A stretch of DNA of 64,000 nt from Clostridium sp. M62/1 (GTDB lineage Bacteria > Bacillota > Clostridia > Lachnospirales > Lachnospiraceae): contig NZ_CP085988.1 in assembly GCF_020736365.1 (NCBI RefSeq), positions 3,657,501-3,721,500 of the forward strand, given 5' to 3'. Position 1 is the stretch's first letter, and each line of letters starts with the position of its first letter. Of this stretch, positions 3,273 through 62,513 are shown piece after piece. The notes below the pieces were generated by a model, which worked only from the letters and a program-made list of their open reading frames with translations, was not told the DNA's origin and did no database searches. Made by a program: the position numbers and the translations under genes.

Positions 3273-3456
3273 TAAAAAAGAATCCTGCGGGGCAGGATTC
3301 TCCGCCTGCGGCGGTTCGCAAAAGCGACATTTTCCTTTCCGCCGCCGCGCGGCTGCCCTAAGCAGCCTTTTTTCTCTGCGCGGCGTGTGTATCCCGCCCG
3401 GCAGAGCTTTTTCTATCGCAGGGAGTTCAGAGGAATTTCCTGTGATGCAAACTAAA
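3273..3456. repeat. Palindromic intergenic repeat (modules A and diverged B), intact IS110 target
   Basis: Module A (3277-3336) contains a GAATCCTGC/GCAGGATTC hairpin, CCGCCTGCGGCGG and GCAAAAGCGACATTTTCC. It matches 32571-32635 closely and 62201-62460 more loosely. A diverged module B follows at about 3381-3450 (gtgtatcccgcc, then a cgcaggga...ttcctgtg hairpin). On the minus strand the first hairpin is followed by TTTTTT and could act as a terminator. Bases 3328-3341 are the uninterrupted version of the site occupied by the IS110 element at 32.6 kb. Confidence 0.75.
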
Positions 3457-29215: not shown

Positions 29216-29583
29216 TCCTGACAGCGCCTCAAAGGGCTGGAGCGTGTATCACGGAAGTCTCTTCCGGGGCCACGCATATTCTCATGGAATGACAAATTTC
29301 AGAGTCTATATAGCAAATATCTCACTTTTACTACTCTTATTGACCGTTTCACAAGTGGTTGCACGCAGACTGCGTATCGGTTGTAAAGTAACCAACTTAT
29401 AAAATTTGAGCTTTGGCTCAATCAATAAGGCAACAAAATGTTACCAGTTCGGCACTTGCCCCGGCTGTCCGTATGGCCTTAACCCTTTCAGGTGGGCAAA
29501 AATATTTGCATGGAAACTCTGCTTTCACTTTGATCCCATGACGGGTTTACTATATCTGATTTTTTCTTTTTTGTCAATGGATT
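29216..29583. other. Gene-free stretch of about 370 bases
   Basis: No supported coding frame, and short frames on both strands are broken by stops. Composition shifts to AT-rich around 29290-29420. It may be decayed DNA from a former insertion, but no terminal repeats or homologous motif could be identified. Confidence 0.35.
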
Positions 29584-30966: not shown

Positions 30967-32400
30967 TTAGTATGCCTTGCCCCAGTAAACCATCTTCACT
31001 GCCGGCTTTCCGCAGCAGACGCAGGTGTCAGCCACCTTCTCCTGCTTAAACGGCATACATCTGGACGTAACGCCCACGGTTTCCTTCAGCTTGTCCTCGC
31101 ACTCCTGGCAGCCGCACCACATGGCCTTGATAAATCCCGGCTTATTGTCTGCCAGCTCCTTCATCTCCTCCATATTGGTGGCTGTGTAGGTGTGGGCGTC
31201 CCGGTGGGCTCTTGCCCGCTCAAACATATCGTGCTGGATGGTATCAAGCAGCTCTGTCACCTTCTCCTTGATCTCATCTAAGGAGACTGTGATCTTTTCA
31301 TGGGTGTCACGGCGCACCAGCACAGCCTGATTCTGTTCCAGATCCTTCGGTCCGATCTCCACACGCACCGGAATGCCGCGCATCTCAGATTCGCTGAACT
31401 TCCAGCCCGGACTCTTGTCAGAGTCATCTACCTTCACGCTGAAGCCGGAGAGAATATCCTTTAACTCGTATGCCTTGTCGAGAACTCCCTCTGCCTGCTG
31501 GCGGATCGGCACAATCACTACCTGTGTGGGAGCGATCCTCGGAGGAAGTACAAGGCCGCTGTCGTCTCCATGCACCATGATGATGGCTCCGATCAGACGG
31601 GTTGTCATTCCCCAGGAGGTCTGGTGAACGTATTTTAACTTATTGTCCTTATCGGAGAACTGGATACCGAAAGCCTTTGCAAATCCATCGCCGAAGTTGT
31701 GGCTGGTGCCGGACTGAAGGGCTTTTCCGTCATGCATCAGGGCCTCGATCGTATAGGTAGCCTCTGCTCCCGCAAATTTCTCTTTATCCGTTTTTCTTCC
31801 GCGGATGACAGGCATCGCCAGAACCTCCTCGCAGAAATCAGCGTAAAGGTTTAACATCAGCTCTGTCCTCTCCTCTGCCTCCTCTGCTGTGGCGTGGGCT
31901 GTATGTCCCTCCTGCCATAAGAACTCTCTGGAGCGCAGGAACGGTCTTGTGGTTTTCTCCCAGCGCACAACCGAGCACCACTGGTTGTAAAGCTTTGGCA
32001 GATCCCTGTAGGACTGAATATCTCTTGCGTAGAAATCGCAGAACAGGGTCTCGGAGGTCGGGCGCACGCACATTCTCTCCTGGAGGGGCTCAAGTCCGCC
32101 GTGCGTTACCCAGGCAACCTCCGGCGCAAATCCCTCTACATGATCCTTCTCCTTCTGAAGCAGGCTTTCCGGAATAAACATGGGCATGTATACATTCTGT
32201 ACCCCTGTCTCCTTAAAGCGTCTGTCCAACTCCTTCTGAATATTCTCCCAAATGGCGTATCCGTCCGGCTTAATGACCATACATCCCTTCACGCTGGAAT
32301 AATCCACCAGCTCTGCCTTTTTTACCACATCTGTGTACCACTGGGCAAAGTCCACATCCATGGAAGTGATGGCTTCCACCAATTTCTTTTCTTTAGCCAT
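30967..32400 (-). CDS. proS: Prolyl-tRNA synthetase (archaeal/eukaryotic-like type)
   Basis: A class II synthetase of 477 residues without the bacterial editing insert, which makes it the shorter ProS type 3. Motif 2, with [19 protein letters not shown], and [18 protein letters not shown] are present, and motif 3 is in the anticodon-proximal half. A C-terminal zinc-like domain with CGCQECED and [10 protein letters not shown] is visible, and it ends with the conserved WGKAY. The ATG at 32400 follows AGAGGAG. A proline-specific T-box leader at 34266-34582 points toward this gene, but an IS110 element now lies between them. The basal promoter in the new arrangement is not evident. Confidence 0.95.
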
Positions 32401-32568
32401 GGTTATCTCCTCTCTCATACTCTGTTTTCTTTTTCTTTTCTGCCGCATCTCGATTCCGGCGATTCTCTGTTCCGGCGCTCAGCGGGTCTTTCCCGCCGCA
32501 GCCCCTATCTCTGCAGGCAGATTGCTTTTGGGCGAAGTACCTTTCTTTCACAGGCTCGGAAGAATTTC

Positions 32569-32635
32569 CTATAAAACAGAATCCTGCTTCGCAGGATTCT
32601 CCGCCAGCGGCGGGCCGCAAAAGCGACATTTTCCT
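32569..32635. repeat. Module A of the palindromic intergenic repeat, left flank of IS110
   Basis: Carries the AGAATCCTGC-ttc-GCAGGATTCT hairpin, CCGCCAGCGGCGGG and GCAAAAGCGACATTTTCCT, ending exactly at the CT where the IS110 element begins. It is nearly identical to 3277-3336. Upstream, between here and proS (32401-32568), lie the remnant of a preceding module tail (TTTCCTATAAAACA) and untranslated leader only. Confidence 0.8.
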
Positions 32636-32649
32636 CGTATTATATAGTA

Positions 32650-32865
32650 GTAGTGTTTATAGACCCTCTCCAAGGTCTGTATGCTATACTGTTTGGAGAT
32701 ACTGTGGATTGGTTTCATTTTCCTACCACTTGATGGTTACGGAAAGGCTCCAACCACAGTCTCTTTGTATCGTTGTTAATCAGTTAGATACCGCATGACG
32801 GTTGATTTAGAACGAGGTTACAAGCGCAGAGAGCTCTGTGGTCCTAAACAGTATCTAAATCTATT
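32650..32865 (+). ncRNA. Putative IS110 bridge RNA
   Basis: A non-coding stretch between the left border and the transposase. A 5' stem-loop AGACC-ctctccaa-GGTCT (32661-32678) is followed by two large hairpins. Hairpin 1 (32701-32760) closes with ACTGTGG-a-TTGG / CCAACCACAGT and has an internal loop. Hairpin 2 (32784-32858) closes with TTAGATAC / GTATCTAA and an inner TTTAG / CTAAA stem. This 5'-stem-loop plus target-binding plus donor-binding layout is that described for IS110 bridge RNAs such as IS621. The ends are estimates. Transcription would be driven by the promoter formed when element ends join. Confidence 0.75.
32716..32747 (+). promoter_or_regulatory. Target-binding loop guides of the bridge RNA
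   Basis: CATTTTCCT at 32716-32724 is identical to the left genomic flank 32627-32635, including the CT core (left target guide). CGGAAAGG at 32740-32747 is the reverse complement of CCTTTCCG. It pairs with the actual right flank CCTTTCTG with one G-T wobble, and perfectly with the intact repeat copy at 3334-3341 (right target guide). Both guides face each other across the internal loop of hairpin 1. Confidence 0.75.
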
Positions 32866-32881
32866 ACTAAGGAGTGTTCTT

Positions 32882-34057
32882 ATGATCTACGTTGGAATTG
32901 ATGTCGCTAAGGATAAGCATGACTGCTTTATCACCAATTCAGATGGCAAAGTCCTTTTTCCGGTTTTTACCATTCAGAATAACCGGGATGGATTTGATGT
33001 TCTTTTTTCCAGGATTCAATCCTCTTCTTCAGATGTGTCCAATATAAAAGTAGGACTGGAGGCCACTGGACACTACTCTTACAACCTGCTCGGTTATCTT
33101 ATTGACAAAGGTCTCCACACCTTCGTTATCAATCCGCTCCACACAAATCTTTACAGAAAAAGTCTCAGCCTTAGAAAGACGAAAACAGATAAGGTTGATG
33201 CCCGAACCATTGCTTTGATGCTCATGTCTGACGTGAACCTGAAGTCCTACTCAGATACATCATACCATAACGAGGAGTTAAAGTCACTCACCCGTTATCG
33301 TTTTCGTAAGGTTCAGGAACGCGCTCAGCTTAGACAGTCTGTTTCCAGGCTTGTTACCATTCTCTTTCCAGAATTGGAAAAACTTGTTCCTTCGCTTCAT
33401 ATCGCTTCTATCTACGCCCTTCTTTCCGAGTTTCCTTCTGCCGGAACGATTGCCTCCTGCCATTTGACACACCTGACGAAGCGGTTGGAAAACGCTTCAA
33501 AAGGCCGTTACAGCCGGGAGAAAGCGATTGAAATACGGAATGCTGCCAGAGCCTCCATCGGTTCCAACATGCCTGCCAAATCTCTGGAATTAAAGCACAC
33601 ACTCCGGCTAATTGGTGAACTGGATTCCGAAATCTCAGAAATTGAATCCGAAATCAAACGGATCATGGATGAAATCCATTCTCCCATCCTGACCATTCCA
33701 GGAATAGGCTACCGCATGGGCGCCATGATCCTGGCAGAGATTGGAGATTTCTCCCGCTTTGATTCGCCGGATAAGATCCTGGCATATGCCGGAGCTTCTC
33801 CATCTACCTATCAATCCGGGCAGATGGAATCCTCTTATTCCCACATGGAGAAACGGGGATCGCGCTATTTACGTTTTGCTCTGATCAATGCCACCAAATA
33901 CGTCTGCCAATGGGATGAAACTTTCGGTGCATACCTTCAGAAGAAGATTTCTGAAGGGAAACACTACAACGTCGCCATCACCCACGCCGCAAAGAAACTT
34001 GTACGGTTAATTTACGCAATGGAAAAATCCGGCAAACCTTACATAAAAACGGCATAA
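32882..34057 (+). CDS. IS110-family transposase (DEDD recombinase)
   Basis: A 391-residue RNA-guided recombinase. The RuvC-like DEDD residues are Asp7 (GIDVAKD), Glu60 (GLEATGHYS), Asp103 and Asp106 (KTDKVDARTIA). The C-terminal Tnp domain has IPGIGYRMGAMILAEIGD and the catalytic serine region AYAGASPSTYQSG (probably Ser312), then KRGSRYLRFAL. The ATG at 32882 follows AAGGAG by 8 bases. The frame is open 29 codons further upstream, but that part overlaps the second bridge-RNA hairpin. No frameshift or missing residue is seen, so it should be active. Confidence 0.95.
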   Translation: MIYVGIDVAKDKHDCFITNSDGKVLFPVFTIQNNRDGFDVLFSRIQSSSSDVSNIKVGLEATGHYSYNLLGYLIDKGLHTFVINPLHTNLYRKSLSLRKTKTDKVDARTIALMLMSDVNLKSYSDTSYHNEELKSLTRYRFRKVQERAQLRQSVSRLVTILFPELEKLVPSLHIASIYALLSEFPSAGTIASCHLTHLTKRLENASKGRYSREKAIEIRNAARASIGSNMPAKSLELKHTLRLIGELDSEISEIESEIKRIMDEIHSPILTIPGIGYRMGAMILAEIGDFSRFDSPDKILAYAGASPSTYQSGQMESSYSHMEKRGSRYLRFALINATKYVCQWDETFGAYLQKKISEGKHYNVAITHAAKKLVRLIYAMEKSGKPYIKTA

Positions 34058-34184
34058 CTTTTTCTGCCCTATAACACTCTTTTAGAGCACCGATATCCGA
34101 TGCTCTGTTTGTCGTGCGATTTTCAAGGTACAACGATCTATGAAATGCGTTCCCGCAATTCATTCAAAAGTCTTCATTTTAGAC

Positions 34185-34205
34185 TTGACTTTTAATAGTT
34201 AGTCT
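34185..34205 (+). promoter_or_regulatory. Outward -35 element in the IS110 right end (junction promoter half)
   Basis: TTGACT at 34185-34190 points out of the right end. When right and left ends join through one CT, it stands 17 bases from TATTAT (32638-32643) in the left end, forming a sigma70 promoter. Transcription would start about 7 bases later, just ahead of the bridge RNA 5' stem-loop. In the inserted state there is no TATA box at that distance. Confidence 0.7.
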
Positions 34206-34272
34206 TTCTGCCGCAGTGCGATCCCCGCGGAGCGTTTTTATATAACAGGGAACGAAGTTTCCTGTTATATAA
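34206..34272. repeat. Module B of the palindromic intergenic repeat, right flank of IS110
   Basis: GTGCGATCCCCGCGGAGCG is followed by the hairpin TTTTTATATAACAGG...CCTGTTATATAAAAA (34237-34273). The same module occurs at about 62273-62330 and 62403-62460. It ends where the T-box terminator T-run begins, so the A-tract serves both structures. Confidence 0.8.
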
Positions 34273-34582
34273 AAAAAGCCGCCGATCCCTCTTAGCAAGG
34301 GACCGATCAGCTCTGCTGTCGGCGGTACCACCCTGATTAACCTTGTTTCCTCTGCTCTGATTCTCAGTCAGAAGATTTCAGCTCTCTCAATGCTCCGTTA
34401 ACGCCGGATTACGTTGCACTTTCGCAGGATTTTCTCAATTTCTGTTCTTATCTCTGCCTCATGCACAGCTCCGAGGAAGGTTCAACTCTGAGTGACACGG
34501 GAATGTCCCACCTGTCATCCCCTCTCTGGAAGTGTATCAGAATCTACTGGGCCTCTTCTCAGCCATGTTTCCATTTGTCCAC
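34266..34582 (-). ncRNA. Proline-specific T-box leader
   Basis: On the minus strand the T-box sequence AGGGTGGTACCGCC lies at 34334-34321. It is followed by a terminator, GATCGGTCCCT-tgct-AAGAGGGATC-GGCGGC and TTTTTTT, at 34312-34267. Stem I carries CCAGAGAGGGGATGACAGGTGGGA and a specifier loop GAACCT in which the codon after GAA is CCT (34480-34478), a proline codon. Uncharged tRNA-Pro would favour read-through. The first gene in this direction is proS, 1.9 kb away beyond the IS110 element. Without the IS the gap would be about 300 bases. Confidence 0.88.
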
Positions 34583-62200: not shown

Positions 62201-62460
62201 CAAAGAAACCTGCCTCGCAGGATTCTCCGCCTGCGGCGGGGCTGCAAAAGCAGCCGTATTCCTCTCCAACCCAGTGCGATCCCCGCGGAGCGTTTTTATA
62301 TAGCAGGGAACAAAGTTTCCTGCTATAGAACAAAGAATCCTGCCTTGCAGGATTCTCCGCCTGCGGCGGGGCTGCAAAAGCAGCCGTATTCCTCTCCAAC
62401 CCAGTGCGATCCCCGCGGAGCGTTTTTATATAGCAGGGAACAAAGTTTCCTGCTATATAA
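62201..62460. repeat. Two tandem 130-bp palindromic repeats (modules A and B)
   Basis: Copy 1 is 62201-62330 and copy 2 is 62331-62460, nearly identical. Each has a CCTGC..TTGC-AGGATTC hairpin, CCGCCTGCGGCGG, GCTGCAAAAGCAGC, GTGCGATCCCCGCGGAGCG and a TATAGCAGGG...TTTCCTGCTATA hairpin. Unlike 3.3 and 32.6 kb, the A-B joint reads ccgtattcctctccaac, not the IS110 target. They lie in the 5' leader of the binding-protein gene. Confidence 0.85.
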
Positions 62461-62513
62461 AAAAACCAGGAAGCTATTTTCCCTGATTCTCAGAGTAAAA
62501 ATACCTTCCTGGT
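62459..62513 (-). terminator. Intrinsic terminator at the end of the nickel-operon leader
   Basis: On the minus strand ACCAGGAAG (62513-62505) pairs with CTTCCTGGT (62473-62465), followed by TTTTTTT. It lies between the leader at 62514-62718 and the first gene, so it would stop the transcript unless the leader overrides it. Confidence 0.75.

Follow-up and report, generated by a model that had tools for sequence, protein, structure and literature searches.

A Clostridium IS110-group element with a predicted bridge RNA whose guides match its insertion sites and, among its relatives, covary with the flanks

The segment 32636-34203 of the window (the whole stretch of 64,000 nucleotides analysed here, C1:3657501-3721500 of the source genome) is almost certainly an IS110-group transposon that carries its own bridge RNA, as judged from the match between guides and flanks, the covariation of guides with flanks and with donor ends, the hairpins, a junction motif, the catalytic residues and eight insertions in the source genome. 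A sequence-only reading of this DNA had proposed a native IS110 element whose bridge RNA carries two target guides that fit the place of insertion, and the present analysis supports that reading. The type of system is already known: the IS110 bridge-RNA mechanism, covariation in thousands of IS110s and targeting of repeats (REP) are described in papers published in 2024 (PMC11208160, PMC11208158, PMC11187229), natural guide-target covariation in the first of them. The element offers a test case from nature for the bridge-RNA model, in an apparent Clostridia lineage, with pairings of the left and right target guides (LTG, RTG), the left and right donor guides (LDG, RDG) and the handshake bases all visible as covariation inside one close family. 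Coordinates are collected in Table 1.

Table 1. Positions of the element, its RNA and its sites in the window (LE, left end; RE, right end; TBL and DBL, target- and donor-binding loops).
Feature	Position	Strand	Basis
IS110-group element (LE, recombinase, RE)	32636..34203	+	8 copies, different flanks; unoccupied repeat copies
Left target and core, CATTTTC CT	32627..32635	+	sequence letters; 8 copies
Right donor CGTAT, faces RDG together with core	32636..32640	+	RDG/LE covariation in relatives
-10 box TATTAT of putative circle-junction promoter	32638..32643	+	TTGACT-17-TATTAT at joined RE-LE
5' stem-loop of bridge RNA, approximate	32655..32685	+	single-sequence fold only; outside tested alignment
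Bridge RNA body, predicted ends	32698..32855	+	helix 1 of 35-pair structure
Possible closing stem GATA/TATC	32698-32701 with 32852-32855	+	helix 1, paired in 99.2% of cells
Target-binding loop hairpin	32702..32759	+	helices 2 and 3; RNAalifold
LTG, CATTTTC and core CT	32716..32724	+	guide-flank covariation
RTG, CGGAA and core complement AG	32740..32746	+	guide-flank covariation
TBL handshake bases G, C, facing donor positions 7 and 6	32747..32748	+	pairing counts, 78 rows
Donor-binding loop hairpin	32761..32833	+	helices 4-6; RNAalifold
LDG AGTTAG, equal to left donor 34197-34202	32782..32787	+	GTTAA variants in LDG and RE co-change, 6 rows; 1 exception
RDG ACGAG, complementary to CTCGT	32812..32816	+	RDG/LE covariation
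DBL handshake bases G, T, of which the first is opposite target position 7	32817..32818	+	pairing counts, 69 rows
IS110 recombinase, 391 aa	32882..34057	+	PF01548 E 2.5e-40, PF02371 E 5.8e-22
-35 box TTGACT in RE	34185..34190	+	motif at joined RE-LE
Left donor AGTTAGT	34197..34203	+	LDG/RE comparison, 78 rows
Core and right target, CT TTCTG	34204..34210	+	sequence letters; 8 copies

The limits of the 1.57 kb element, flanked by CT cores at 32634-32635 and 34204-34205, were set by eight copies in the same genome, whose interiors are letter-identical (32640-34200 compared) and whose flanks differ. Five of them lie inside a dispersed repeat of ~130 bp and three at unrelated sites (L006, L007, L008). 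Unoccupied repeat copies of the same genome read CATTTTC-CT-TTC uninterrupted across the site, and by comparison with them the insertion is scarless at the CT core, with no target duplication past it. Between core and start codon the LE measures 246 nt, and the RE has 151 nt between the last sense codon and the end of the core. As indicated by the fold conserved in the LE of relatives, the bridge RNA is coded in the left end, 5' of the recombinase gene; assignment to the IS1111 group, with the RNA in a long right end, was rejected on this position and on the lengths of the two ends. Elsewhere in the source genome (C1:2779576-2779765) there is a left-end fragment, 86% alike to the element, which ends abruptly in the donor loop, and ~1.8 kb beyond it a 62-aa recombinase fragment of 50% identity; both are probably remains of a related element.

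The recombinase has both a DEDD RuvC-like domain (PF01548) and a C-terminal Tnp domain with the serine (PF02371). Its best relatives among solved structures are IS621 (E 1.5e-22), to which it aligns in two stretches only, and ISCro4 (9t56, E 9.1e-21), likened here by protein alone, as a recombinase homologue. In our own reading of the IS621 alignment, D, E, D, D and the catalytic serine (YQSG versus YESG) are identical, the assignment following the numbering of IS621 catalytic residues given in PMC11208158.

The two target guides together spell CATTTTC-CT-TTCCG, the centre of the repeat that holds five of the eight copies. The letters and coordinates reported earlier are correct (CATTTTCCT at 32627-32635 and 32716-32724, CGGAAAGG at 32740-32747), and the left guide equals the left flank through the CT core in 9 of 9 letters. 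Concerning the right guide, taken earlier as eight bases complementary to the flank, CGGAAAG does pair with CTTTCTG with one G-T wobble, because the right core CT precedes the flank TTCTG, but the eighth base, G32747, falls outside the guide, and the C placed before CTTTCTG is present only in the rejoined site, the right end of the element having a T. G32747 is opposite the base that precedes the core and covaries with donor position 7 in relatives, and is better read as a putative handshake base facing donor DNA; in IS621 the matching base is the handshake guide for donor position 7, and handshake pairing itself is already published (PMC11208158). A more accurate count gives the left guide 7+2 nt and the right guide 2+5 nt, with the handshake base in addition.

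All eight copies have guide-like flanks, including those at the three unrelated sites, which bears out the expectation that other copies would show a relation to the two loop segments. The LTG matches 9, 9, 9, 9, 9, 7, 8 and 7 of 9 letters and the RTG 6, 7, 6, 6, 7, 6, 7 and 6 of 7; counted as non-core guide letters (of 12), the repeat-borne sites reach 11, 12, 11, 11 and 12 and the others 9, 11 and 9. As a background, among the 9,008 CT sites of the window 14 reach 9/12 such letters, 2 reach 10/12 and a single one reaches at least 11, this being an unoccupied repeat copy, while the combination of at least 5/7 letters on the left and at least 4/5 on the right occurs at 7 of the 9,008 sites versus 8 of 8 insertion sites. 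One could suppose that these matches reflect chance or residence in a repeat, with the target read by the protein alone, and five of the eight copies do sit in one repeat family, so these five are not independent target choices. Such an explanation has to face the three copies at unrelated sites, still guide-like, and the 54 distinct guide pairs in relatives and window that track their own flanks far above shuffled expectation (see below), and we consider it very improbable.

It should be noted that the RNA lies directly 5' of the recombinase start codon and that a stem between LTG and RTG is possible in the window element, as would suit a mere leader or attenuator of the recombinase gene, the likeness of loop and flank then coming from letters copied on insertion. 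Against this, the same loop is found in all eight copies while their flanks differ, which means that insertion does not rewrite the loop each time (none of the eight copies in the source genome has a loop that follows its flank), and the covariation of the donor loop with both element ends is left unaccounted for. We give this explanation hardly any credence and retain the bridge-RNA reading.

The relatives analysed are the best 80 of 523 confirmed loci, with 73-92% identity over the best segment in one scan. They are mostly labelled as Clostridia, with two MAGs labelled Bacteroides and Bacteroidaceae (L076, L094). Guides were extracted by pattern from 77 of the 80 relatives and from the window (n=78; L021, L041 and L063 are absent), with usable left flanks in 72 rows and right flanks in 70. 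When elements are aligned together with their flanks, the guides track each locus's own flanks across the 78 rows, which extends the relation first read in the window to other members of the family. Left positions -7 to -1 match in 378 of 504 cases, against a mean of 253.0 and a maximum of 288 in 10,000 flank shuffles, and right positions +1 to +5 in 286 of 350, against a mean of 167.3 and a maximum of 201 (10,000 shuffles), the relatedness among loci surviving this shuffling. When every guide pair for which both flanks are available is counted once (n=54), the figures are 280/378 versus 181.2 shuffled on the left and 220/270 versus 127.4 on the right. Sliding the guide by 1-3 positions along the flank lowers the identity from 0.63 to 0.30-0.36 on the left (-8 to -3) and from 0.81 to 0.27-0.45 on the right, and beyond the footprint values are near background (0.35 versus 0.30 at -8, 0.26 versus 0.22 at +6). 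The signal covers -7 to +5. Weak fits are seen, among others, in L062 (right), L070 and L085 (left) and L089 (both). Read by eye and kept outside the counts, L063 matches 10/10 on the left and 7/8 on the right, and no readable target loop was found in L021 and L041. The target loop of L041, by eye, is without the apical stem and the RTG.

Donor guides and handshake bases also covary with the element ends and the target, according to the aligned sequences. For RDG and LE, the 78 rows show GAACGAG with CTCGT in 52, GAACAAG with CTTGT in 18, GAAGTAG with CTACT in 2 and GAAGCAG with CTGCT in 1, the remainder being one wobble exception (GAACGAG with CTTGT) and 4 unread. For LDG and RE (78 rows), six rows combine GTTAAAT with GTTAATCT, against one exception; GTTAGAT is found beside GTTAGTCT in 59 rows and beside GTTAGACT in 5, GTTAGTT beside GTTAGTCT in 4, and 3 rows are unread; since GTTAGAT mostly accompanies GTTAGTCT, LDG position 7 is mismatched in most rows. 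In all 78 rows the first TBL handshake base and donor position 7 are able to pair (68 G-T, 5 T-A, 5 A-T), as are the second base and donor position 6 in 70 of 78. In the DBL, the first handshake base forms a Watson-Crick pair with target position 7 in 66 of 69 rows, while pairing of the second is limited to 10 of 69. Joined RE-LE ends yield the sequence motif TTGACT-17-TATTAT in 63 of the 72 rows with both ends, the window included, and the promoter score of the junction exceeds that of the integrated context in 67 of 72 rows and equals it in 3.

The two large hairpins proposed from the sequence recur in our analysis, with z = -4.09 for the single-sequence fold and with a 35-pair structure kept across 65 aligned sequences. 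This structure is paired in 98.1% of cells versus 96.2 in shuffles, with two-sided change at 8 pairs versus 4.2 and in 55 cells versus 15.2; further pair types (25 versus 22.4) are barely above shuffles, 21 of 500 reaching 25, and the structure, hand-drawn with the window sequence in view, is thereby favoured over slid controls. Its weakest part is helix 7 (90%). RNAalifold alone, on the same 65 sequences, recovers both hairpins with the guides unpaired in the internal loop, as proposed, but the minimum free energy (MFE) fold of the window by itself pairs LTG with RTG over 6 bp (UUUUCC/GGAAAG). Such pairing, with at least 5/7 LTG letters paired, appears in 12 of 78 target loops folded alone, and the complementarity arises because the target is half-repetitive (TTTTCCT/CTTTCC).

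Neither the GATA/TATC stem that may close the RNA nor the 3' hairpin was recovered by RNAalifold from the 65 sequences; both come from the 35-pair test, where the closing stem shows two-sided changes in 23 sequences and 1 sequence at two pairs. In the RNAalifold consensus one base of this stem has another partner, a pairing possible in 61 of 65 sequences. A rival closing stem through other upstream bases, drawn from the window MFE, was discarded as not general, with runs of at least 7 pairs in only 23 of 65 relatives and a mean longest run of 6.12 versus 5.63 with shuffled partners. The GATA/TATC stem is likely, with other pairings of the same bases competing. A search of the RNA against Rfam returned no family at gathering score, nor up to E 1.

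Taken as a whole, we infer the following cycle. By homology to IS621, the recombinase would excise the element as a circle, and the RE-LE junction of this circle would build the promoter TTGACT-17-TATTAT driving the LE-encoded RNA. The first internal loop of the RNA would bind the target, with the LTG on the bottom strand to the left of the core and the RTG on the top strand to its right, and the second would bind the element's own joined ends through LDG and RDG, whereupon a recombinase tetramer would swap strands beside the shared CT. RNA expression, recombinase binding and RNA-directed recombination are thus predicted functions.

As described for IS621 (PMC11208160, PMC11208158), the element has an LE RNA that comprises a 5' stem-loop and both a target and a donor loop, a CT core, a junction promoter (putative here), handshake bases and both Pfam domains, guides over 14 target positions with the same footprint (PMC11208158), and a dispersed palindromic repeat as target (REP for IS621). 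Differences are found in the guides: the RTG signal extends here 5 positions past the core (7 nt), whereas the RTG of IS621 is described as 4-nt, a longer one having been engineered, and LDG identity is clear here over 6 nt, whereas IS621 pairs 8. In addition, a stem may close both loops, which we did not meet in the IS621 descriptions of PMC11208160 and PMC11208158. Since a 7-nt right target guide is described to improve IS621 when engineered and this lineage appears to have a natural one, it is a candidate for programmable DNA insertion. By description, there is also likeness to ISEc21 and other seekRNA elements (PMC11187229), i.e. a noncoding region, which in the IS110 type precedes the transposase gene, a guide-containing RNA and targets that differ among related IS.

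As a lead, the guides appear to diverge much more than the RNA scaffold. At a protein identity of 92% and a fourfold-site divergence of 31.5%, the window and its relative L023 differ in 0.7% of scaffold columns but in half of the guide letters (6 of 12). Over 76 intact reading frames, with pairs limited to those in the alignment, mean guide divergence is 0.083 for fourfold divergence of 0.02-0.10 (2 pairs), 0.375 for 0.1-0.2 (2 pairs), 0.451 for 0.2-0.3 (12 pairs) and 0.43-0.50 in higher classes; it exceeds that of fourfold sites between 0.1 and 0.4 and does not in the two closest pairs together, one of which has identical guides. The trend is only a lead, since some members belong to several pairs and the classes of low divergence contain few pairs. 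Guide turnover on a near-constant scaffold would make target change approachable via close relatives.

Two relatives from different genomes (L088 and L098, both labelled as MAG contigs) show the arrangement LF-[LE..LTG-CT]-[full element]-RF, with a left-end duplication of 87 and 89 bp, respectively, whose junction falls exactly on the core of the LTG of the element itself. Of the flanks, the outer left one is a loose fit to the LTG and the right one fits the RTG. This seems to be what is expected of a recombinase-made joint between left target and right donor, reached either through a circle that inserts into the LTG of the resident copy and a later homologous deletion, or through unequal recombination at the two cores. 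Alternatives are slippage between left flank and LTG, which could draw on the 3 (L088) and 4 (L098) letters shared at the junction, as counted by eye, and an assembly error. The junction pattern occurs once in each of its two original genomes and no more there, and was absent from 392 genomes of the order and 393 of the class, overlapping samples in which element carriers are uncounted and which give no rate, as well as, in its GG form only, from viral contigs (0). A bridge-RNA gene would necessarily contain the left half of its own target and be spared self-targeting mainly because the bases right of the guide misfit the RTG; that L088 and L098 mark failures of this protection, and that, given also guides that diverge by as much as half on a near-constant scaffold, self-targeting and rapid retargeting shape bridge-RNA evolution, is a tentative proposal that we hold to be rather unlikely. 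Self-targeting or retargeting of bridge RNAs was not found in the literature, as far as titles and the openings of abstracts tell.

Returning to the repeat, a query with it gives 51 matches in the source genome, which include half copies beside insertions, partial copies without the site (such as the partial copies L169-L172) and weak opposite-strand matches of the palindromic end. Occupancy was counted over the five occupied copies and 33 fetched stretches with 36 unoccupied site copies (two copies with the same 14-mer in each of L143 and L161). Four unoccupied sites carry 14/14 guide letters and three more 13/14 with CT intact, and when the flanks of the five occupied copies are rejoined, these carry 13 or 14 of 14. 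With a cut-off chosen post hoc, occupancy is 5/12 for sites with at least 13/14 guide letters and intact CT versus 0/29 for the rest (Fisher p 0.0011). Further repeat copies lie in the window at 3277-3351 and 62202-62463, the former with a guide site that is perfect and unoccupied (its core CT at 3335), the latter a tandem pair near the window end.

As to the surroundings, the element sits between proS (ORF 30967-32448, minus strand) and a T-box leader (34295-34569, minus strand; E 2.5e-17, 80.9 bits, under the Rfam gathering score of 93), in opposite orientation to both. In seven of seven congeneric genomes, none of which gave a recombinase match at E 1e-40, a T-box lies within the fetched 0.7-0.8 kb upstream of proS; here the distance from T-box to proS ORF is about 1.85 kb. 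A relative's stretch (L174; G004, 1-350) has pieces of the same repeat between T-box and proS, with a run of N inside, so the repeat may well predate the insertion. Finally, 29449-29498 on the minus strand matches the Rfam family SpF59_sRNA (ldcC RNA) with E 4.9e-9.
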